From positions 1-64,000 of the forward strand of contig NZ_CP042327.1 in NCBI RefSeq assembly GCF_007904085.1: a DNA stretch of 64,000 nt. Reading direction: 5' to 3'. Origin of the DNA: Euhalothece natronophila Z-M001 (GTDB lineage Bacteria; Cyanobacteriota; Cyanobacteriia; Cyanobacteriales; Rubidibacteraceae). Positions 17,014-30,128 of the stretch are shown here, piece by piece. A program made the position numbers and the translations under genes. The number at the start of each line of letters is the position of its first letter. Within the stretch, counting starts at the first letter, position 1. The notes under the pieces were generated by a model that worked only from the letters and a program-made list of their open reading frames with translations, was not told the origin of the DNA and searched no databases.

Positions 17014-20000
17014 CTAAGTTGGCGGCGATGCTCCCAACGCGATCGCGACAATGAGACAAGCTGGCAACTCCGTTTTTTCCTCCAACGCAGCGATATCTTT
17101 CCCTCCATTTGCCAGAAAGTCCCTCAGTGATTGAATCATAGAAATTACCGTATCAGCAAAAATCTTTTGGCAATCCTCATCATCAATTTTCAGATACTCC
17201 CTGAGTATTTTTAGACTAAGTAATCCACTGGAGGTTATTCCAACTCCTATAAATCTCTTATATAGGAACTGGAATAATCTTAGTAACCGATCTTTACCGC
17301 CAGCTTGATTGATTAATTTACTGACACAGCTTTGCTTGACTCCGAGCTTTTGCCCGATCTCCGTTTGGGATAATTTTCGGAAGTCTTCTCCCAATTCCAA
17401 ACCAATCTGGATTAATCGCAGTTTGTTTTGTTGGGAGGTACTGCCAGCTTTTTCTGTCCATTCGAGTGCGTGGCTATAGTGAACTGTTACCCCCATAGCT
17501 TCAAGGAAGGTAAAGTCGATATTGGTGGCAATGAGGTAGATAGTAAAATTCTGGTCGGGGTACAAGTGGCAGCGTTGTCGCCCTAACAGTTGAATAATCT
17601 CAGCTTGTCTCAGAGAATCATAATAATCATCAAACCCTTTGAGCGTGCCATGAATGGTGTAATATTCATCTTTGACCATGCCATAGTTCTGATAAGGAGT
17701 TCCCACGGCGATTAAGTTTGGCACGCCCTTTAGGGTGTTAGTGCTACGGCTGTCATGGAACCAGTAGCCATCTATATCTAAATAATTGGTATCTTTCCAT
17801 GCGATTAATGCTGATTCAGTATCAATGTATTCTGATTTAAGATGATCCACTAAAGCTAATTGGCGGCGCTGGCAATCGGGAGAATACTGCCGTGATCGCA
17901 TTCCCTCCATGTAGATAGCTTTCACTGTTAGATTGCTTAAATCAGGCTGTTCTTGGCTAATAACGGCGATTTCTTCCCGTGGCACTCCTAGCTTGGCTGC
18001 TAACTCTTCTGGTGACATGGTGGCATCAGCAAAGATATTAGCTTTCATGTCATGGGCGATCGCGCGGTGTCTTTCATAGGCAAGTGTTAGTTTAACCTTG
18101 CCATGACCAATTCTGACAACGCCATCTTCTTTTCCAAAGAGAATGGCTAAAATTTCATATAATCCCAGTGTGGGAATATTGGCAATTACCTGATCATTAT
18201 GCTGGGAGGTTTCGCCATGAAGGTAACTATCTGCCAGCGCGATCGCGCTTTTCCACTTCTTCCGTTCTGCTGGGGTTAACCCGTTATAGCGATCTACTTT
18301 GTTGGTTTTGTAATCAGCCAATCCCTGATCAGCAACGGCGCGATGTTTTTCGATAATTTGCCAGACAATTAATAAATCTTCTTTGAAGCCATCATAAGGG
18401 ATAATTCCTAAAAGATACTGAAGGCTTTCTTCCTCAGTTGCTTCAGGAAGCGAGGTTGCACCATAATGGGGAACTTTAATCTTCCCTGCTAACATCGCAT
18501 TGATATTTTGTTTATATGGCAGTAATCGTTGGTAAACTTTAGGGGCTTCTTCTTCAATCCAGTTCCATTGCTGATCTAAATCAGTCTGGCTTAAGATACG
18601 CTCTTTTGTGGCTTGGAAGAGGGTGCTAGCTTCCTCAAAAATGGCAATATCATTTTCGTAAGATAAGCCATCTTCAGGGCAATCAGGATTGGGCATGGAA
18701 TCAATATGGGCGCGAATAGCAGGATTAGCCAGTGCATCTCGTCTTTCTCCTTTGTAGCCAAATTGAGTACAGCTTCCACGCTGGGGACAAGTGGCACAAA
18801 TGAAGTTATCCTTACCATCGTTGGTGGCAGTATTACGGGAATTAACATCATAGCCTTTAGCAGCTAACTTATTAAACCGATCCGCTTGAAAACAATTCCC
18901 CTCGATGTCAGGTTCGGGCTGTTCTTTACTCCACTTCCAGCGTCGAACATAGGGATCACCTGTGGCGGTTTCCCGTGTTGTATCCTGTACTAAGCCATTA
19001 TGACGGCTGGGGAGATCTGCTTTTTGGGCGGCGGTTTCGGTGGTGGGGTTACGATGATCCGCGTGGATATACCATGTTTTTCCCTCGCTACTTTCTAGCT
19101 GGTTTAATTCGTGGGTTTTCCCTGTTCCCGTGGCGCTTGTATCAAGGATATAGTGATAACCTTTTTTGATTAGCTCTTGAACACAGGATGAGCGTTTCCC
19201 TTTTTTGAATTTAATTTCATGGAGAATGCCATTAGAAGGATTTTTCTTAGGAATCTCATCTTTGCCAAAGATAAGTTTCTTCACCTTGTTAACTTCTCTT
19301 TCAAACCGTTGGCGGTTCAGGATTTCATCAAATCCGTTGAATTGATGGCCAGCGTGCTTCTTGATTAATTCAATGAAATCTTGCCCTTTTTGGGTTTCCC
19401 ATTCTTTTTGGGAGATTTCTTTGCCACCAGCTTCCGATTCTAGTTCGCGCTGATAGCTAGCTTGCTCTGGATTTTTGGCAAGATAATCACTAGGAGAAAT
19501 TAGCGCGATGTCGCTAATGGTTTCCTCTGATATCTCATCAATATCACCATTGGATTTTTCTATCTGATTCCACCAAGCGATAGAAATCTCCTCATATCCC
19601 CATTCTTCTAGGAGATTGAAAAGCTCAATCGAAGGCTCAATTACTCGTGGATTTAAGACCGCGCCAGCATCAGGAATAAAGATTAATTCCGTGGCTTCTA
19701 ATTCCTGTAATGCTGAATTGAGTAATTGGGGAGATTGGGGGAAGAAGGAGACACCAGCAAAGCCAATGACGGGATAACCTAATCTTTCGGCGGCGATCTT
19801 TGGCTTCCATTCTAAGCCCTCACACAAGCCCACACGATTAGGAGATTGAATCTCAGACGGATAGTAAACGGCTAGTGGATACTCCCCTGTTTCCTTGTCT
19901 TTTTGGGTGCATCCCTGCTTATTAGAAGCTAGCCAAGTGTATTTGCCGTTTCCTGTCTCTTGGGCGTTGGGATCATGGAAGCGTAAAGCCACATACTCGC

Positions 20001-20541
20001 CATTCTGGTTGGGAATTGGGACAACAATCCCATCACAAGGATTATTAAGTCCTCTTCCATAGCGGTTAACACCAGCTAAAGCAGGGCTGACAGGGGTTTC
20101 TAATTTTTGCCACTTGCTAACGCTACGATATCCCCCAGCTTGAATCTGCTGATCGCTTAATCCTCTGGCTTTTAGTTTCTCTCTATGTTCATCAGTGAGA
20201 GGTAACTGAGAGAGAATCTCTCTGATTGCGCGATCGCGCTCTTGATTAGATAGGGAAGATTTGATTTTCTGATTCTCTTGCTCTAGCCATCTTTCCTTCT
20301 CTCGTCGCTTTTGTTCAAGCCATTGCTGTTTCTTCTCTTCGGAAAAGTCGCTGATTTCCGATTCCAGCTTATACATTCTGAAGCCGTGCTTATCCTCTTT
20401 CAGGAATCGGTAAGCAGGAGAAGGATTTTCACCACGGCAGTGAGTAACATTCGTTTTTGTATTAGTTCGACAACCTTTCTTTGTTTCCCCACAAACAGGG
20501 CAGGGGTTTCGGTGGTTGTGGCGTTCCCAGACTCTAGCCAT
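17014..20541 (-). CDS. cyrepA1: CyRepA1-type plasmid replication protein (primase-helicase)
   Basis: 1175 residues. The N-terminus carries a zinc-ribbon-like C-P-V-C...T-H-C (residues 14-35). Next comes a Toprim-like region with GLCEGLEWKPK (about 238) and IFIPDAG (about 290). A P-loop SATGTGKTHE (about 470), IFADATMS, and AEIIQLLGRQR (about 988) mark a superfamily 2-like helicase. Near residue 549 and 580-592 are NCF and CATCPQRGSC, four cysteines spaced like an Fe-S cluster. A C-terminal helix-turn-helix reads SQTEIGQKLGVKQSCVSKLI (about 1070). This order matches the CyRepA family, known from Slr7037 of Synechocystis pSYSA. It should unwind and prime plasmid DNA. Its ATG overlaps the stop of a short leader frame. 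Confidence 0.88.
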   Translation of the reverse strand: MARVWERHNHRNPCPVCGETKKGCRTNTKTNVTHCRGENPSPAYRFLKEDKHGFRMYKLESEISDFSEEKKQQWLEQKRREKERWLEQENQKIKSSLSNQERDRAIREILSQLPLTDEHREKLKARGLSDQQIQAGGYRSVSKWQKLETPVSPALAGVNRYGRGLNNPCDGIVVPIPNQNGEYVALRFHDPNAQETGNGKYTWLASNKQGCTQKDKETGEYPLAVYYPSEIQSPNRVGLCEGLEWKPKIAAERLGYPVIGFAGVSFFPQSPQLLNSALQELEATELIFIPDAGAVLNPRVIEPSIELFNLLEEWGYEEISIAWWNQIEKSNGDIDEISEETISDIALISPSDYLAKNPEQASYQRELESEAGGKEISQKEWETQKGQDFIELIKKHAGHQFNGFDEILNRQRFEREVNKVKKLIFGKDEIPKKNPSNGILHEIKFKKGKRSSCVQELIKKGYHYILDTSATGTGKTHELNQLESSEGKTWYIHADHRNPTTETAAQKADLPSRHNGLVQDTTRETATGDPYVRRWKWSKEQPEPDIEGNCFQADRFNKLAAKGYDVNSRNTATNDGKDNFICATCPQRGSCTQFGYKGERRDALANPAIRAHIDSMPNPDCPEDGLSYENDIAIFEEASTLFQATKERILSQTDLDQQWNWIEEEAPKVYQRLLPYKQNINAMLAGKIKVPHYGATSLPEATEEESLQYLLGIIPYDGFKEDLLIVWQIIEKHRAVADQGLADYKTNKVDRYNGLTPAERKKWKSAIALADSYLHGETSQHNDQVIANIPTLGLYEILAILFGKEDGVVRIGHGKVKLTLAYERHRAIAHDMKANIFADATMSPEELAAKLGVPREEIAVISQEQPDLSNLTVKAIYMEGMRSRQYSPDCQRRQLALVDHLKSEYIDTESALIAWKDTNYLDIDGYWFHDSRSTNTLKGVPNLIAVGTPYQNYGMVKDEYYTIHGTLKGFDDYYDSLRQAEIIQLLGRQRCHLYPDQNFTIYLIATNIDFTFLEAMGVTVHYSHALEWTEKAGSTSQQNKLRLIQIGLELGEDFRKLSQTEIGQKLGVKQSCVSKLINQAGGKDRLLRLFQFLYKRFIGVGITSSGLLSLKILREYLKIDDEDCQKIFADTVISMIQSLRDFLANGGKDIAALEEKTELPACLIVAIALGASPPT

Positions 20542-20675
20542 TAGTCCGCCTCCCCCGTTAGTGCGACTGCGATGCGCCCTAATTGAACAATGGCGGTTGT
20601 TGGGGAAAAGGCAAATTTGGAATAGGGTTCTTGATTTAAGAGTAGGTGGGAACTATGCTTCGTTTTAGTTTTCAT
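20541..20675 (-). CDS. 44-codon leader peptide coupled to the replication gene
   Basis: The frame MKTKTKHSSHLLLN...LTGEAD ends in TAA, whose last A is the first base of the replication gene ATG (TAATG). It has a near-perfect Shine-Dalgarno AAGAGGAGG six bases before its ATG, whereas the replication start has no clear site of its own. This is the plan of a translationally coupled leader, as in several plasmids where ribosomes must finish the leader to start Rep. The peptide itself is not recognised. Confidence 0.7.
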   Translation of the reverse strand: MKTKTKHSSHLLLNQEPYSKFAFSPTTAIVQLGRIAVALTGEAD

Positions 20676-20682
20676 TGATTTC

Positions 20683-20703
20683 CTCCTCTTGGGATGGGAG
20701 GAG
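20683..20703 (-). promoter_or_regulatory. hairpin hiding the leader Shine-Dalgarno
   Basis: In the minus-strand mRNA, CUCCUC pairs with GAGGAG of the Shine-Dalgarno across a nine-base loop. Folding would shut off leader translation and, through coupling, Rep. Confidence 0.6.
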
Positions 20704-20975
20704 TAAACCAGAAATCGATCAGAACCCTATTTTTTCACTTTTTCTAAACTATGCTAGAATACTAATGTGTAGTTAGTTTCTAGTAGCGTTTGGATTAAGA
20801 GCGAACAGTGAGCGTTTCTGATTAATTCTTGGTTAGCTCCTCCCGTTTACTTGGGTATCGTTCATCGCAACAACTAATTTCCAACGCTTAGTGACTTCAG
20901 AGGCTTTGGCCTCACCTGAGCGCAAAACAGGTCGAACTCTCGACCTTGAGATGCGCGGGCAGATAAGCCCTCATC
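20704..20975. ncRNA. gene-free region with three successive stem-loops (20900-20970)
   Basis: Stem-loops follow one another: GAGGC-TTTG-GCCTC (20900-20913); a longer one (20920-20956) with outer GCGCA/TGCGC and inner AGGTCGA-ACTC-TCGACCT; then GGGC-AGATAA-GCCC (957-970). Placed between the replication leader and the 20976 gene, the set may be a copy-control antisense RNA, part of the Rep 5' leader, or a terminator. Strand and ends are not known. CyRepA plasmids such as pSYSA are reported to use RNA control near rep. Confidence 0.4.
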
Positions 20976-21815
20976 CTACTTGTTCACGACTGCATTTTCA
21001 TTAGAGGTTGCTGTATTATCAACTGAAGAATTATACTTAGTTTTTGAGTTTGAGGAATTGGTCTTTGATGTTACAAAGGCCTTGATAAACTTAACTAGCC
21101 TATCTTCCTCAATAATGGTCAGTGTACCACGTCCCTGTTTCTTAATCCACAAAAATTTTTCATCACCAACTTGGCCATATAAGTGTGGAGGGTGATGCTT
21201 ATTTATCTTCGTTTCCCCCATTAGTAACAATATCCTAACGGAGGGCTTTCTCGTATCATTAGATTTTCCACCAAAAAGACTACGCTCATTTTTTTGTAGC
21301 CACCTAAAGCATTCAGGAATATAGTCAGAGGGATCAGGTTTCCAGATGTTCTTTCCTCTGTTGTTAACGCGACGAATATAGAAAGTTTCTTTATCCTCAC
21401 GATAAGTAATTATTGAATCATTCATCTTCCGATGACAAATGGCAAAGTAAATTTTTTGAGGAAAGCGTACAAATAAATCAATTTGATTAACCGTTGCGAC
21501 ATCTTTTGGTACTTTAACTTTTGGAATGATCTCAATACCATCGTCTTCAAAATGTTCTAATAGGGTTTCCATTATATGAATCATGTGAGATAAAGTAGCA
21601 ATTTCCTTGACTTTATTCCCACCAAGAATACTGAAAACAACGGAAAACATTGTATTAAGCCAGAGAGAACTAATTGCTCCCCCATAGTTTAAAATTGCTT
21701 TTAAAACCTGTTTATTTCTTTCTTTTTTTAGCTGATTAAGAGCTTGATCATTATCAAATTCACCAATTGGAGGATATTTCCCATCTTCATTGCGGAAATC
21801 CAAGTCTGAAATCAT
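20976..21815 (-). CDS. hypothetical protein, possible nuclease-fold
   Basis: 279 residues, not recognised. The middle has ATVNQIDLFVRFPQKIYFAICHRK (about 107-130), a D...I-x-H-R-K pattern faintly like the D-(D/E)-x-K core of restriction-type nucleases, though the E/Q before K is replaced by H-R. A short hydrophobic patch (SLWLNTMFSVVFSIL, about 50-64) could be a buried helix rather than a membrane span. The C-terminal 30 residues are Ser/Asn-rich and disordered. Its start overlaps the stop of the RHH-like gene upstream, so the two form an operon, perhaps a DNA-binding regulator and its effector. Confidence 0.55.
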   Translation of the reverse strand: MISDLDFRNEDGKYPPIGEFDNDQALNQLKKERNKQVLKAILNYGGAISSLWLNTMFSVVFSILGGNKVKEIATLSHMIHIMETLLEHFEDDGIEIIPKVKVPKDVATVNQIDLFVRFPQKIYFAICHRKMNDSIITYREDKETFYIRRVNNRGKNIWKPDPSDYIPECFRWLQKNERSLFGGKSNDTRKPSVRILLLMGETKINKHHPPHLYGQVGDEKFLWIKKQGRGTLTIIEEDRLVKFIKAFVTSKTNSSNSKTKYNSSVDNTATSNENAVVNK

Positions 21816-22183
21816 TAGTTATTGAAGAGTATTAAATAGTTTTTATAACTTGAAAGGAAGTTTTTATCACGTGAAAGAAAGTTTTTATAACTTGAAAGGA
21901 AGTTTTTATAACTTGAAAGGAAGTTTTTATAACTTGAAAGGAAGTTTTTATTTGGTTGGTTCTCCATTTCTGCTAATCCAACCATTGTTGCTTCTCGTAA
22001 CAGTTTCGAGAAGCTCATTCCTCGTCTTTCTGCCAGTTGTAGCGCTTTATGGTAGGCACTGGCAGGTAATCGCAACCCGAGACTTTTTTTTAGCAATGGT
22101 TCAGTTTGCGGATCAGGGGTCGTAAAACGCCCTAGCTCATCATGAGTTTGCTTTAGTTTTCGCATTTTCGGCTCTTTTTTCAT
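21815..22183 (-). CDS. ribbon-helix-helix-like protein with NFLSSYK tail repeats
   Basis: 122 residues. The N-terminal two thirds (SLGLRLPASAYHKALQLAERRGMSFSKLLREATMVGLAEME) have the strand-helix-helix look of plasmid RHH DNA-binding proteins. The C-terminus is five copies of the heptad NFLSSYK (one NFLSRDK variant), encoded by a 21-bp tandem repeat. The 279-residue gene starts at its stop codon. The repeated aromatic/lysine tail is unusual for the family and may be a slippage product. Confidence 0.65.
   Translation of the reverse strand: MKKEPKMRKLKQTHDELGRFTTPDPQTEPLLKKSLGLRLPASAYHKALQLAERRGMSFSKLLREATMVGLAEMENQPNKNFLSSYKNFLSSYKNFLSSYKNFLSRDKNFLSSYKNYLILFNN
21839..21951. repeat. 21-bp coding tandem repeat (about 5 copies)
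   Basis: The unit GAAAGGAAGTTTTTATAACTT is repeated nearly perfectly and in frame inside the RHH-like gene. One unit is diverged (TATCACGTGAAAGAAAG). Confidence 0.9.
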
Positions 22184-22790: not shown

Positions 22791-22891
22791 GCAAAGGGGA
22801 TAACTGCAAAAGATTAATTGCTCTCTCTTGGTGGATTGGTGATGGTTTGATGTAAAATTAGTCTTAAGTTAGTTTCAATGGAAGAAGAGGC

Positions 22892-22911
22892 TACCCATAA
22901 CGTTATGGGTA
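22892..22911. promoter_or_regulatory. parS-like palindrome, copy 1
   Basis: TACCCATAACGTTATGGGTA, a perfect 20-bp palindrome, identical to copies 2 and 3. It precedes the truncated duplicate of parA. Confidence 0.8.
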
Positions 22912-22938
22912 AACTGGAAAGCGAATAATCATTATCCT

Positions 22939-23043
22939 GTGAGCATTATTAGCCTTGTTAATCAAAAAGGGGGTTGTGGAAAAAGTACAACCGCCGTTCA
23001 TTTTTGGTAATGGCTCTCCCCAGACAAATCAGTTAGTTTCATG
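22939..23043 (+). pseudogene. truncated duplicate of parA
   Basis: Starts GTG and reads (M)SIISLVNQKGGCGKSTTAVHFW, then a TAA stop where the intact gene at 24169 has FAY. Nucleotide identity with 24169-24270 is very high, including the upstream palindrome and the CATTATCCTGT lead-in. It runs into an unrelated frame near 23041. Confidence 0.9.
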
Positions 23044-24107: not shown

Positions 24108-24158
24108 ATGAAAGAAAAGGCTACCCATAACGTTATGGGTAAAGTCAAAAGCGAATAA
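24108..24158 (+). CDS. 16-codon micro-frame overlapping parS copy 2
   Basis: Reads MKEKATHNVMGKVKSE and stops. The duplicate upstream keeps the same frame (MEEEATHNVMGKLESE), with the start, stop and THNVMGK core retained. ParB residues around 154-164 carry the same KxTHNVMGK in the same frame. It could be a leader peptide, or a trace of how parS spread from parB coding sequence. No Shine-Dalgarno is evident. Confidence 0.3.
   Translation: MKEKATHNVMGKVKSE
24122..24141. promoter_or_regulatory. parS-like palindrome, copy 2 (parAB operator)
   Basis: TACCCATAACGTTATGGGTA, 28 bases before the parA start and just downstream of a candidate promoter. This is where a ParB or ParA repressor would act. 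Confidence 0.8.
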
Positions 24159-24168
24159 TCATTATCCT

Positions 24169-24810
24169 GTGACTGTTATTAGCCTTGTTAATCAAAAAGG
24201 GGGTTGTGGAAAAAGTACAACCGCCGTCCATTTTGCCTACTGGCTCTCCCAAGACAAATCAGTTAGCTTCATTGATGCTGATTCTCAAGAATCTAGTTCG
24301 GGATGGCTGGCTCAGTTAGACTCAGTTAACTTCTCTTATCAGGCAATTTTAGATCCAGAAGCCTTATTTGATGCGATTGAAGTAGCTCAAGAACAGTCGG
24401 ACTTAGTCGTGGTTGATGGACCTGGGAGTTTAAGTGAGGTAACAAAAACCATTCTTGATTTATCTGATTTGACGCTTGTTCCTTGTCAGCCGTCAGGGTT
24501 GGATTTAAGTAGTAGTAACCAAATTTTACAAGTGATTCGTCAGCGACAAAAAGTCCGTCAGGGTCGTCCTTTAGTGGGCTTATTTCTGAGTCGTGGTGTT
24601 AAAAATACGATCTTACTGCGAGAAGCCCAACAAGCTCTAAAAGCTGATCAACGGTTTCCCTTATTAAATACGATTATTTACCAACGGCAGTGTATCTCTG
24701 ATGCACCCGTTCAAGGGGCAACGGTTTTTGAGAATTCTAGTTCGTCTGCACAAGCAGCCGCCAAAGATTATGTTTCGTTATTTCAGGAGGCTTTGAAGAT
24801 CCTTGGCTAA
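24169..24810 (+). CDS. parA: ParA partition ATPase
   Basis: A 213-residue deviant Walker-type ATPase: KGGCGKSTTAVHF (residues 10-22) carries the signature lysine, followed by SFIDADSQES (Walker A') and LVVVDGPGSL (Walker B). The short size without an N-terminal helix-turn-helix fits a ParA of type Ib or a small cyanobacterial ParA. It moves plasmid copies apart together with ParB. It starts with GTG, and the parB start lies within its end (8-base overlap). A parS-like palindrome sits 28 bases upstream, so autoregulation is likely. Confidence 0.92.
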   Translation: MTVISLVNQKGGCGKSTTAVHFAYWLSQDKSVSFIDADSQESSSGWLAQLDSVNFSYQAILDPEALFDAIEVAQEQSDLVVVDGPGSLSEVTKTILDLSDLTLVPCQPSGLDLSSSNQILQVIRQRQKVRQGRPLVGLFLSRGVKNTILLREAQQALKADQRFPLLNTIIYQRQCISDAPVQGATVFENSSSSAQAAAKDYVSLFQEALKILG

Positions 24811-25699
24811 ACGACGTAATGTTCAATCTTTTTTAGCAGAACTCCCGAAAGAAGCGGAATCGGATTTATTAGTTAGCGCGATCGTTCCTTCTCAACTACA
24901 ACCGCGCCGTTATTTTGATGACGAAAAACTGGAGCAATTAACGGGTTCTATCAAAAAGCATGGCATTCTAGAACCGTTATTAGTTCGTCCCTTACAGAAG
25001 GGAAATCATCAATATGAGTTGGTAGCTGGAGAAAGACGGTTTCGTGCAGCGCAAGCATTAAGATTAGAAACAGTTCCTGTGATTATTCGTGATTTAACTG
25101 ATGAAGAAGCCTTGGCCCTATCTTTAGTTGAAAATTTAGCGAGAGAGGACTTAAATGCAGTTGAGGAAACGGAAGGGGTAATTGCCCTATTGGGGATTGA
25201 ACTCAACTTAGATCATTCTGAAGTAGTTTCTCTCCTTTACCAATTAGATAATCACAAGAAAGGAAAGGTTACCCATAACGTTATGGGTAAAGAAACAGTT
25301 GAGCAAGTGGAAGCTATTTTTGAGGGGTTAGGGTATAGTTTCTCTTCTTTCATTGCTAATCGTCTGCCTTTACTCAATTTACCACAGGAGATTCTAGATG
25401 TTTTGAGAAGCGGGAAGCTGGCTTATACGAAGGCAACTGCTATTGCTAGAGTAAAAGATGAAGCCTCGCGACAACAATTACTCGCCGAGGCAGTTGAGGA
25501 AAATCTATCTCTCAATGAGATCAAAGAACGGGTTAAGGCAATTAAGAGTTCTAAGACTGAGAAAGTAACTCCCGTACAAAAAATTGACCGAACGGTTAAG
25601 CAATTAAAATCCTCTCAACTTTGGAAATCTGATCCTGAAAAATGGAAGCGTGTGGAGTCTCTCTTGGCGGAAATGGAAAGTTTAATTTCTCAAGAATGA
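24803..25699 (+). CDS. parB: ParB centromere-binding protein
   Basis: A 298-residue ParB. The CTPase domain shows VPSQLQPRRYFDDEKLEQL, then GERRFRAAQ (box II, about residues 76-84) and LVENLAREDLNAVEE (about 112). The central helix-turn-helix follows, then a C-terminal dimer region. Start is TTG inside parA. The gene itself contains a perfect 22-bp parS-like palindrome at 25269-25290, encoding THNVMG between the two DNA-binding segments. It should load on parS, spread, and stimulate ParA. Intact and well supported. Confidence 0.92.
   Translation: MAKRRNVQSFLAELPKEAESDLLVSAIVPSQLQPRRYFDDEKLEQLTGSIKKHGILEPLLVRPLQKGNHQYELVAGERRFRAAQALRLETVPVIIRDLTDEEALALSLVENLAREDLNAVEETEGVIALLGIELNLDHSEVVSLLYQLDNHKKGKVTHNVMGKETVEQVEAIFEGLGYSFSSFIANRLPLLNLPQEILDVLRSGKLAYTKATAIARVKDEASRQQLLAEAVEENLSLNEIKERVKAIKSSKTEKVTPVQKIDRTVKQLKSSQLWKSDPEKWKRVESLLAEMESLISQE
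25269..25290. promoter_or_regulatory. parS-like palindrome, copy 3, inside parB
   Basis: The 20-bp core of copies 1 and 2, extended to a perfect 22-bp palindrome by a flanking T and A. It lies in the parB reading frame, where it encodes THNVMG. Confidence 0.8.
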
Positions 25700-27239: not shown

Positions 27240-30128
27240 ATGACCTTACCAGTTATTATACATCCTGATGTAATAAGTTTTTTTAATAATTCCTCTCAAA
27301 CTGATTTCGGCAATCGTGTATGGAAGTGTATCGATAAACTAAAGAAGCGACAGTTTGATGGTGGATTAAGAGTCAAGAAATTACAAGGAACCACGAAAAG
27401 GGTATGGGAAGCAAGAGTAACTCAAGCTGTTCGTTTGATTTTTACTTATACTAAATCGATACAGGCAGATACTGGAGAGCCACAAGTTTATCTTACCATC
27501 CAGGATCTCTGCTTAGATCATGATGATGTCTCTCGACAAGTCAAAGCAAGACAAAGAACGCCTGATCATCAATGGCTAGATGCAGAAGAACTTGAAACAG
27601 TTGGAAGTTTAGAAACGGAGCGCACTTCTCTTACACCTGATGAGCAATCAGCAATTGATCAAGCAGAAGCAGAAGAGTTACAGATTTCTGAAGAGGTTGT
27701 AGATGAACTCGTCGGAAATATTCAATGGCGAGTAGTGGAATCAGAATCAGAATGGCAACAAGCAATTACAAACCAGGATGTTGATTTACCCCTTAAACTC
27801 ACCCCAGAAGAGTATGAGTTAGTTAATCATTATGGCAATTTATTGTTGTCTGGGAATGCTGGGACAGGGAAAACAACTGTTGGGTTGTATCGGTTGCTAA
27901 AAAGCCTAGAAAACTTACCAGAAGGAAAACGGCTGTATGTTGCGTATAATCCAGTTTTAGTAAAAGAGGCAAAGCAAAAGTTTAATCGGTTAGTTGGAGC
28001 TAAAATTAGCGAAGTTGAATCTTTATTTGAGTTCAAAACAATTCGGGAATTATGCTTAGACATTTTAGAAGAAGCAGGGGAAACTTATTTTGAAGCAAAT
28101 GAAGTAACTTACCAAGCCTTTGATCACCTTTACCGTCGTGCTGAACGTAATCAGTATCCATCAGCTTTAGTCTGGGATGAAATTCGTAGCATTATTAAAG
28201 GTTCATACCTTGAAACTGATCAAAATCTGCTTTCTAAAAACCAGTATAAACAATTAGGAAAGAAAAGATCATCAACAATTTCAACAGATCAACGTCCAAA
28301 AATTTATGAATTAGCAGAGTGGTATCAAAAACAACTAGATACAGATGAACGCTTCGATGAAATTGATTTAGCAAGACAAGTTCTCAAATTAATAAAACAG
28401 GGAACAGGTAATCGCTATGAAATGATTATCTGTGACGAAGTACAAGACTTGACTGAACTACAGCTACATTTACTACTGCAACTGATAACACCCAATGGTC
28501 ATCTGTTTTTTGCCGGAGATTTAAACCAAATCGTTAGTTCCAGTGGGTTTCGATGGAAAGAATTAAAGAGTAAATTATATCGAAATAAGCGTCCTGTTAA
28601 ACAAGAAACATTATATTTTAATTTCCGTAGTGTGGGGTCATTAACCCAGTTAGCAAATCAAGTATTAAAATTAAAATCGCGCTTATTAAACGAAACAGTT
28701 GAACAATCGAACCAAGCTGTTAATAGTTATGGAGAATGGGCCAGATTAATTAATGCCTCATCATCAGAGTTACAACCGACTCTTGAACAGCTTAATCCTG
28801 AAGATGCAATTTTGGTGAGAACAGAAGCAAATAAGGATGAAATATCAGATAAATTTCAATCCAGTTTTGTCTTTACAATCGAGGAAGCAAAAGGTCTAGA
28901 ATTTGATACCGTTTTCTTAGTTGAGTTTTTCCAGGTTAATTCAAATTTATGGCAAAAGGTTTTAGAAGGGAAAGGAACCTTAAAAGATAAAGAGAAACCG
29001 GCATTAAGGCGAGAATTAAACTTGCTTTATGTTGCAATCACCCGCACTCGTCGAATTTTGAATATTTGGGAGACTCAGCTGTCTTCTCTTTGGACTCAGG
29101 AAGAAGTGGATAGTTTTACTGAACAAATTGAGCCAGAATCAGTAAGAGAGGTACGAATTGAACCGACTGCTGAGATGTGGAAAGAGCGAGGTTTATATTA
29201 CTTAGAAGCTAAGTTTTATCGTCAGGCTATAGAGTGCTTTAAGTTTTCAGGCGACTTTCAACTACAGCGACAAAGTGAAGCTAAATTATTCTTACAGGAA
29301 GGAAAAGAAAGCGAAGCAATTGAGATTTTTGTGGAACTAGGAAATCATGAGAAAGTTGCACAATTATTTGAAAAGCAAAAGCAGTGGGAAAAAGCTGCTG
29401 AACAATATAATTTAGCAGGGCTGGAAGAAAAAGTTACTGAATGTAGAGAAAAAAATCAACAAAAACATAATTTAAATAATAATACAAATAAAAAGTCATA
29501 TTTTAAAAGAAAAAGAAAAAGTAAAATAATTAATAAATCTAAAATAGACACTAAGGAGCAACAAAGTGCTATATATATAGATACTATTTTCCTAAACCAA
29601 GCTCTTTTTTATACAGGTCAAGTGTATCAAAAACTACATCCAAATCTCTTCTCAAAAAATGAATGGAGCAAGAAATTAAATGTGATGAATATTTCGGAAT
29701 TAGTCCCATTTTTAATTGAATATATAAGTCCTGAGCATCCGAATTATAAATGGCCTGGATTAAGTAGTGATAAAAGGATTGATGTATTTGCTTTTAAATG
29801 TTCAGAAGTTTGGGGACAAATAACTGTAGATCCTGATCAATTTTCTGTAAATGATAAAGAATGTCGTATTCAACTGTTTGAAGTAGATTTAGTAGCACCT
29901 TCAATTCAATCACATATCGTCAAAAATATCCAACAATATAAAGGTATTTGCATAGTAGGTAATGATTTATTATATGATATTATGATCAAACAAGGTATAG
30001 AAAAAGGATTTTCCTTTAGCAGGTATAAAAGTCATCACATGGAAGATAAAATTACAGCTCAAGTGCCTTTTCAATATATAGCATATCCGATTGGGCGAAG
30101 CTGGGGATTACAAAGCTATGAACTTTGA
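27240..30128 (+). CDS. UvrD-like helicase with RelE-like N-terminus and TPR-like C-terminal half
   Basis: 962 residues. Residues 1-75 (VIIHPDVISFF...GGLRVKKLQGTTKRVWEARVTQAVRLIFTY) look like a RelE/ParE-type fold. A superfamily 1 helicase follows: LLSGNAGTGKTTVGL (about 203), IICDEVQDLTELQL (about 396), FAGDLNQIV, and LLYVAITRTRR (about 596). Residues 640-745 carry repeats of WKERGLYYLEAKFYRQAIECFK type, a TPR-like region. The last 170 residues are an unrecognised domain after a basic Asn/Lys linker. UvrD-like enzymes with toxin-like heads are found in defence islands. It leads a two-gene plus-strand unit. Confidence 0.75.
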   Translation: MTLPVIIHPDVISFFNNSSQTDFGNRVWKCIDKLKKRQFDGGLRVKKLQGTTKRVWEARVTQAVRLIFTYTKSIQADTGEPQVYLTIQDLCLDHDDVSRQVKARQRTPDHQWLDAEELETVGSLETERTSLTPDEQSAIDQAEAEELQISEEVVDELVGNIQWRVVESESEWQQAITNQDVDLPLKLTPEEYELVNHYGNLLLSGNAGTGKTTVGLYRLLKSLENLPEGKRLYVAYNPVLVKEAKQKFNRLVGAKISEVESLFEFKTIRELCLDILEEAGETYFEANEVTYQAFDHLYRRAERNQYPSALVWDEIRSIIKGSYLETDQNLLSKNQYKQLGKKRSSTISTDQRPKIYELAEWYQKQLDTDERFDEIDLARQVLKLIKQGTGNRYEMIICDEVQDLTELQLHLLLQLITPNGHLFFAGDLNQIVSSSGFRWKELKSKLYRNKRPVKQETLYFNFRSVGSLTQLANQVLKLKSRLLNETVEQSNQAVNSYGEWARLINASSSELQPTLEQLNPEDAILVRTEANKDEISDKFQSSFVFTIEEAKGLEFDTVFLVEFFQVNSNLWQKVLEGKGTLKDKEKPALRRELNLLYVAITRTRRILNIWETQLSSLWTQEEVDSFTEQIEPESVREVRIEPTAEMWKERGLYYLEAKFYRQAIECFKFSGDFQLQRQSEAKLFLQEGKESEAIEIFVELGNHEKVAQLFEKQKQWEKAAEQYNLAGLEEKVTECREKNQQKHNLNNNTNKKSYFKRKRKSKIINKSKIDTKEQQSAIYIDTIFLNQALFYTGQVYQKLHPNLFSKNEWSKKLNVMNISELVPFLIEYISPEHPNYKWPGLSSDKRIDVFAFKCSEVWGQITVDPDQFSVNDKECRIQLFEVDLVAPSIQSHIVKNIQQYKGICIVGNDLLYDIMIKQGIEKGFSFSRYKSHHMEDKITAQVPFQYIAYPIGRSWGLQSYEL

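Follow-up and report, generated by a model that had tools for sequence, protein, structure and literature searches.

The question raised by this locus in Euhalothece natronophila Z-M001, whose genome comprises five contigs, is how a cyanobacterial replication gene is held under control. The window, that is, the whole stretch of DNA analysed, is the first 64 kb of a contig of 82,066 bp. ParA- and ParB-like genes start 3.6 kb from the rep locus, and from these genes the contig is most likely a plasmid. The original prediction had placed here a replication gene of the CyRepA family behind a coupled leader peptide, the Shine-Dalgarno sequence (SD) of which was hidden by a hairpin. The following features form the junction.

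17014-20541, minus strand: rep gene, encoding a CyRepX (Slr6031-like) replication protein of 1175 aa
20541-20675, minus strand: leader reading frame of 44 codons, the stop overlapping the rep start as TAATG
20682-20689, minus strand: leader SD AGAGGAGG, which contains AGGAGG and ends 6 nt 5' of the leader ATG
20549-20556, minus strand: the rep gene's own SD GGGGGAGG, 7 nt 5' of the rep ATG and inside the last leader codons; predicted to be mostly paired, at a level unexceptional against shuffles

Direct reading of the minus strand placed the leader ATG at 20675, its TAA at 20543-20541 and the rep ATG at 20541-20539, the junction sequence being GACTAATGGCT, in which the final A of the leader TAA is the first base of the rep ATG. 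The TAATG overlap of leader stop and rep start was thereby borne out, and the leader SD and the complementary CTCCTC upstream of it were likewise found (20689-20682 and 20703-20698, respectively). When the 400 nt upstream of rep were shuffled with dinucleotides kept, a leader of at least 44 codons arose in 522 of 20 000 shuffles, and 6 of 20 000 combined that length with an SD matching at six or more bases. The window leader is above chance expectation, since so few shuffles yield an equal leader with an SD. The locus thus carries two features by which leader-coupled control is recognised, a leader that overlaps the rep start and a ribosome-binding site on that leader. The leader peptide gave no family match in a Pfam scan or against PHROG.

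The family name given to the Rep did not survive. The CyRepA1 model NCBIfam NF042913, which scores Slr7037 of pSYSA at 595.8 bits (cut-off 200), gave no match to the window Rep up to E 0.1, and blastp against Slr7037 returned 22 bits (E 0.18). Slr6031 (CyRepX1) of pSYSX, on the other hand, aligned with it at 373 bits and 29% identity over 1113 alignment columns (query residues 12-1082), which is most of the protein. Judged by this similarity, the window Rep is a CyRepX and not a CyRepA1 protein. It had no family match to IncFII-type RepA, and a Pfam scan gave only a sub-threshold match to sigma-70 region 4. Its N-terminal domain consists of a CPxC motif followed by a primase-like stretch (weak PHROG match). 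The same type of N-terminal domain was also found joined to C-terminal parts of CyRepA1 type in L035 and L036, two loci of a single genome from the host's genus; L025, L026 and L072 have the corresponding CyRepX-CyRepA1 composition, and these five hybrids are best read as domain shuffling among cyanobacterial Reps.

Several other features lie near the rep gene. A perfect 16-bp palindrome, CCCATAACGTTATGGG, is present in three copies, each next to or within the parA/parB genes (22894-22909, 24124-24139 and 25272-25287; 0.02 expected) and is a candidate parS centromere site. The parA start is duplicated together with its upstream palindrome (22880-23010 and 24110-24240), the first copy resembling, by eye, a broken remnant. 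Between 23348 and 23970, a 70-aa ribbon-helix-helix-like ORF (RHH_5, below the curated cut-off) overlaps a 137-aa ORF with no Pfam match, by layout a probable toxin-antitoxin pair. Upstream of rep and on its strand, two genes of 122 and 279 aa with no assigned family (20976-22183) are joined by TAATG, so that rep may not be the only case of coupling here. At its 3' end, the 122-aa gene holds 5.4 copies of a 21-bp repeat, AGTTTTTATAACTTGAAAGGA (21838-21951), which is putatively iteron-like; stretches 72-79% identical to it occur, unannotated, in Flavobacterium and related plasmids.

A profile of the Rep N-terminal domain hit 127 of 388 genomes from the order and 111 of 388 from the class, the two draws overlapping. 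Loci from both profile searches were pooled with those from other searches, 18 plasmid records and 80 extra stretches. The resulting 193 loci were reduced to 174 with domain hits, 169 with a start, 167 with at least 250 nt upstream and 110 after dereplication at 75%. Rep starts were set blind to leaders, as the nearest ATG before the cysteine motif (L149 and L167 had no such motif), and a leader was defined as a reading frame of 20 codons or more that opens with ATG, lies in a frame different from that of rep and ends at -5 to +8 of the rep start. By this rule an overlapping leader preceded 64 of the 110 dereplicated Reps as against 11.1 ± 3.1 (maximum 20) in 40 shuffles, leaving 46 without one, and leaders of at least 40 codons preceded 49 of the 110 as against 4.2. 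Admitting any candidate start and stops out to +11 gave 69 of 110, a count without shuffle control. The stop lay at +1 (ATGA/GTGA) in 40 of the 64 leaders, at +5 in 12, at -2 (TAATG/TGATG) in six and at +8 in four, with one each at -4 and -5. Among Rep pairs of 60-98% identity, duplicate loci included, both members had a leader in 95, neither in 25, and 48 disagreed. Sorted by C-terminal type with a query, L003, that may itself be mixed, leaders preceded 21 of 41 CyRepX-like, all five CyRepA1-like and 38 of 64 unclassified Reps. Three such leaders are annotated as genes, beside L046, L049 and the CyRepA1-type L260, where the overlap of 14 nt falls outside the leader rule. Overlapping leaders are widespread among related Reps, in over half of the sample, and this recurrence far above chance supports the coupling logic of the original prediction.

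An SD of at least 4 stood at the leader start in 39 of 64 leaders (20% of shuffle leaders) and one of at least 6 in 10 of 64 (1%). Substitutions in 14 close pairs of leaders were spread over codon positions 1, 2 and 3 as 61, 44 and 51 (p 0.25), 13 of the pairs being independent, as L069/L086 and L014/L047 are comparisons between near-identical copies of the same plasmids and contribute one substitution each. The third position was not favoured, from which the peptide would appear mostly not to be under selection. Leaders were 20-195 codons long and most of their peptides mutually unrelated. A conserved peptide was therefore rejected as the general basis of the leader, the window leader being without family match and most others without third-position excess. 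Six leaders (L061, L081, L082, L083, L141 and L144) encode a conserved protein of ~100 aa, 35-70% identical, and there are two smaller leader groups besides. For the majority, the frame seems to count and its product mostly not, as a coupling device predicts, so translation itself seems to matter.

The emphasis of the original prediction had been on RNA structure around the leader start, where the following elements lie.

20683-20703, minus strand: hairpin CTCCTC/GAGGAG over the leader SD, 6 bp with a 9-nt loop; not above chance alone
20621-20631, minus strand: 3' arm of an outer stem, in leader codons 15-19; 11 nt, 100% complementary to 20721-20731
20721-20731, minus strand: 5' arm of the outer stem, a perfect stem of 11 bp
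20696-20844, both arms: imperfect inverted duplication of the leader 5' region, centred at ~20770; one arm ends in CTCCTCCC (anti-SD) and the other gives GGGAGGAG on the minus strand

CTCCTC at 20703-20698 is complementary to GAGGAG at 20688-20683, with a pair probability of 0.96-0.98 in a modelled short transcript. However, the paired fraction of the leader SD in the window (0.84) did not exceed the mean of dinucleotide-keeping shuffles (0.85), and the hairpin was rejected as a family feature, SD pairing being 0.674 as against 0.668 in shuffles among the 40 leaders that have an SD of 4 or more (the remaining 24 of 64 gave no usable test and were excluded). The prediction had thus stressed the wrong element, the hairpin instead of the overlap. 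It had also overlooked the outer stem, which encloses both the leader SD and the leader start. A 136-nt fold was unusually stable because of this perfect 11-bp stem (z = -2.96; 1 of 200 shuffles equally stable), while a 261-nt fold was unexceptional (z -1.17). A ribosome translating the leader would be expected to open the outer stem. Pairing over the rep start was 0.74 in the window and 0.71 in shuffles (p 0.4), and in the window alone none of leader SD, rep SD and rep start was paired beyond shuffles. Relatives with a leader showed a small excess over the rep start (0.663 as against 0.630, n = 64, p 0.001); in those without one the values were 0.610 and 0.582 (n = 46, p 0.06).

The inverted duplication scored 33, above the shuffle maximum of 30 (0 of 2 000 shuffles as high). 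A palindrome was rejected as a family trait, as 16 of 108 upstream regions beat all 60 of their own shuffles, mostly with repeats of ~20-60 nt, as against the ~150 nt spanned in the window. In a transcript modelled from 20749, the leader SD pairs with CTCCTC (probability ~0.97). Starting the model at 20860 diverts the anti-SD CTCCTCCC to GGGAGGAG at 20844-20837 (1.00), and the leader SD region is then paired at 0.45, down from 0.75; both 5' ends are guesses, the folding method used cannot predict pseudoknots, and the alternative fold is a prediction without comparative support. The alternative pairing can be viewed as a possible RNA switch, in this plasmid only. Transcripts could enter from upstream genes, since a simple scan of 20400-21000 gave no terminator-like site. 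Three Rfam matches (E 0.13-0.77), all to eukaryotic families and far below gathering score, were taken as chance, and no tRNA was found. The sole DNA match to the control region in nine genomes of the host family was one of 33 nt, and matches in plasmids fell only inside the 21-bp repeat region of another gene. Peptide-pattern scans of genomic and viral contigs gave no relatives of the leader.

Promoter motifs were scanned from -250 to +150 of the rep start in the 110 Reps and compared with shuffles. Antisense promoters of at least 10/12 were found at 17 Reps as against 3.7 ± 2.0 in shuffles, and of at least 9/12 at 42 as against 24.2 ± 4.9. Sense-strand promoters were not enriched at either threshold (1 as against 3.5, and 18 as against 23.1, respectively). 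Two candidates on the strand opposite to rep lie in the window.

20631-20659, plus strand: weak antisense promoter candidate TTGATT-17-TATGCT, 8/12, below the threshold of the separate scan; predicted start ~20666, reading over the leader start and SD
20732-20760, plus strand: promoter candidate TTTTCA-17-TAGAAT with TG before the second hexamer, 9/12; predicted start ~20767, reading away from rep; 0.5 such sites expected by chance in the region

The 5' regions of other cyRepA genes were compared as well. Among the best 30 CyRepA1 loci, 26 were scored (L194 and L221 were short of upstream DNA, and L206 and L220 had no ATG near the frame start); an ATG leader stood at the first ATG in 0 of 26 and at any of the first three in 1 of 26, a rule that misses L195, a pSYSA-like plasmid gene with a TTG frame scored as negative. 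Many of these controls are probably chromosomal, since 11 of the 26 come from contigs larger than 1 Mb, the others from smaller or draft contigs. In 40 further slr7037-like loci (11 without motif; L231 and L255 are one plasmid), a start could be read in 29, six of which have a leader, starting from ATG in L235, L236, L245 and L257 and from TTG in pSYSA and its relative L224 (the gene of L195). Leaders therefore occur in this family at some slr7037-like loci and were absent at the first ATG of the best CyRepA1 controls.

Taken together, we consider leader-coupled translation of rep the best explanation and a reasonably probable one, Rep being made after a throw-away leader has been translated. 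It builds on the overlap, the two SDs, the enrichment of leaders in relatives, a frame kept without peptide conservation and the excess of antisense motifs. Further support comes from the frames kept on the two other plasmid-like contigs of the host and those in pSYSX, pSYSA and a pSYSA relative (below), from the slight excess of pairing over the rep start in relatives with a leader, and from SGI1 and R1, where others demonstrated coupling for such an arrangement. In this model the leader would be a translated frame of nearly irrelevant sequence on whose translation that of rep depends in cis. Ribosomes would load on the leader SD, unfold the stretch before rep, stop at TAATG and restart via the rep gene's own SD. 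Leader loading would be the control point, governed by how the RNA folds around the leader start and probably by an antisense RNA as well, which this plasmid would make from the leader region. Rep output, and hence plasmid copy number, would follow leader translation. Against coupling stand the 46 of 110 Reps without leader, the 48 discordant pairs, the replication of p6031 (below), the good SD that rep itself has, the pairing of leader SD, rep SD and rep start in the window at no more than shuffle level, and the weakness of the antisense promoter there.

Overlaps of the ATGA type are common in bacterial operons, and the upstream frame could simply be a small gene with its own product at a compact junction without regulatory role. 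TAATG also joins the two genes upstream (21815), and some leaders are, as mentioned above, conserved proteins of ~100 aa. Such an ordinary operon overlap nevertheless appears unlikely, as most leaders are mutually dissimilar and without third-position excess, the window leader has no family match, and unrelated leaders precede near-identical Reps with the overlap kept. A different reading follows Ohdate et al., who, in the part of their pSYSX report available (PMC10899382), propose direct blocking of the rep SD by antisense RNA; rep would then be translated independently from its own SD and the leader would be incidental. The asRNAs reported for slr6031 and slr6090 begin ~25 nt into the gene and span its SD and start, the slr6031 asRNA start matches TTGACT-19-TAGAAT (predicted start +24), and antisense promoter motifs are enriched among the 110 Reps. 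Furthermore, the vector p6031, as far as its published description was available, starts at 27,879 and replicates in S. 7942, unstably and at a copy number below that of pYS; this start is 78 nt before that of slr6031 (NC_005232 annotation), so that the leader start is missing. Since p6031 replicates nonetheless, either coupling at slr6031 does no more than modulate, or translation entered the truncated frame from the vector. Direct blocking leaves the excess of overlapping frames, and of SDs before them, unexplained and is compatible with coupling, because such an RNA covers both; as a full account we regard it as quite improbable.

For pSYSA, Kaltenbrunner et al. favour a ColE1-like scheme in which a sense RNA primes replication and an antisense RNA controls priming, and the leader would be dispensable for Rep synthesis. 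According to the accessible part of that report (PMC9978351), extra ssr7036 RNA in trans raised the copy number of pSYSA by a factor of 2.75, or of 3.2 when codon 2 was a stop, and the stretch between ssr7036 and slr7037 was read as a spacer and likely replication priming site. The construct acted in trans and made no asRNA1, so the effect can also be read as titration of asRNA1, and the experiment with the codon-2 stop is no test of coupling in cis. Moreover, the presumed primer spacer forms an open frame from TTGA to TAATG: the TGA stop of ssr7036 overlaps the TTG opening a 55-codon frame, which ends as TAATG on slr7037, and a pSYSA relative has a corresponding relay of 56 codons despite gaps of 4, 6 and 7 nt between the sequences. 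We therefore hold a ColE1-like explanation to be very unlikely here.

Two other plasmid-like contigs of the host, of 45.6 and 44.3 kb, each have a rep of CyRepA1 type; the first 500 residues of the two are 98.6% identical, and their upstream DNA is, by eye, unrelated beyond ~50 nt. Both have a frame open to the same stop at +5, of 57 codons from ATG in one contig and of 74 from ATG or 93 from GTG in the other. The upstream module was replaced before similar Reps in 18 pairs (upstream score at most 0.25); in the 16 inspected, two with L085 (a copy of L125) being left out, a leader was present in 15 of 20 loci, any candidate start counted. That incompatibility drives cassette swapping was not demonstrated: upstream regions had a similarity of 0.32 for 16 pairs within a genome, some of them on a single contig, as against 0.49 for the 25 other pairs (p 0.14), and replacement was found in both groups. 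A tentative and rather doubtful extension would be that Reps of different C-terminal types share an exchangeable 5' cassette, consisting of a leader frame kept open but free in sequence and of antisense transcription, and that swaps before near-identical Reps let sister plasmids coexist. The inverted duplication would here act as a switch, short transcripts hiding the leader SD and long ones freeing it by pairing GGGAGGAG with the anti-SD.

The logic of leader-coupled rep genes is known, in the parts of the sources available, from R1, SGI1 and I-complex plasmids. In R1 (IncFII), the small frame tap lies directly before repA, as the leader does in the window, translation is coupled, the antisense RNA CopA acts on the leader, and long and short transcripts are made (PMC5717011, in part). 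In contrast to R1, the window Rep is unrelated (no IncFII Rep family match), coupling and antisense RNA are predicted from sequence, and the leader SD itself lies in a hairpin. In SGI1, S004 overlaps repA inside an inverted repeat, an arrangement shared with the window, and a leader stop abolishes RepA (PMC7826253, in part); there, however, the Rep is IncN2-related, the promoter is activator-driven and the overlap is four codons rather than one base. Closer to the window, pSYSX combines a Rep of the same family, known antisense transcription and a 65-codon frame that ends as ATGA on slr6031, with a peptide unrelated to the window leader and a frame not described in the part of the pSYSX report available. 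A peptide related to that leader is encoded upstream of the PCC 6714 gene, in a frame ending at +11. pSYSA resembles the window in its small upstream frame, antisense RNA, copy-number effect and a second frame ending as TAATG on rep, and differs in its CyRepA1 Rep, in being read as ColE1-like and in its relay of two frames, the second from TTG.

The original prediction had known of no such report for the CyRepA family. This stands for leader coupling, which the available parts of the pSYSA and pSYSX reports do not describe, but not for its components, as pSYSA was already known for an upstream ORF and an antisense RNA that influence copy number (PMC9978351), and pSYSX for antisense RNAs across the rep start (PMC10899382). 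A search covering few subscription journals found no report of leader coupling for the CyRepX or CyRepA families, so that, within the literature searched, its occurrence across CyRepX and some plasmid CyRepA genes appears new. Copy-number control of cyanobacterial plasmids is poorly understood, which limits vector design. If coupling is general, one testable rule would apply to pSYSA, pSYSX and many others, two published models would read differently, and unrelated Rep families would have arrived at the logic of R1 and SGI1. Leader coupling could also account for the coexistence of plasmids with near-identical Reps in one cell.
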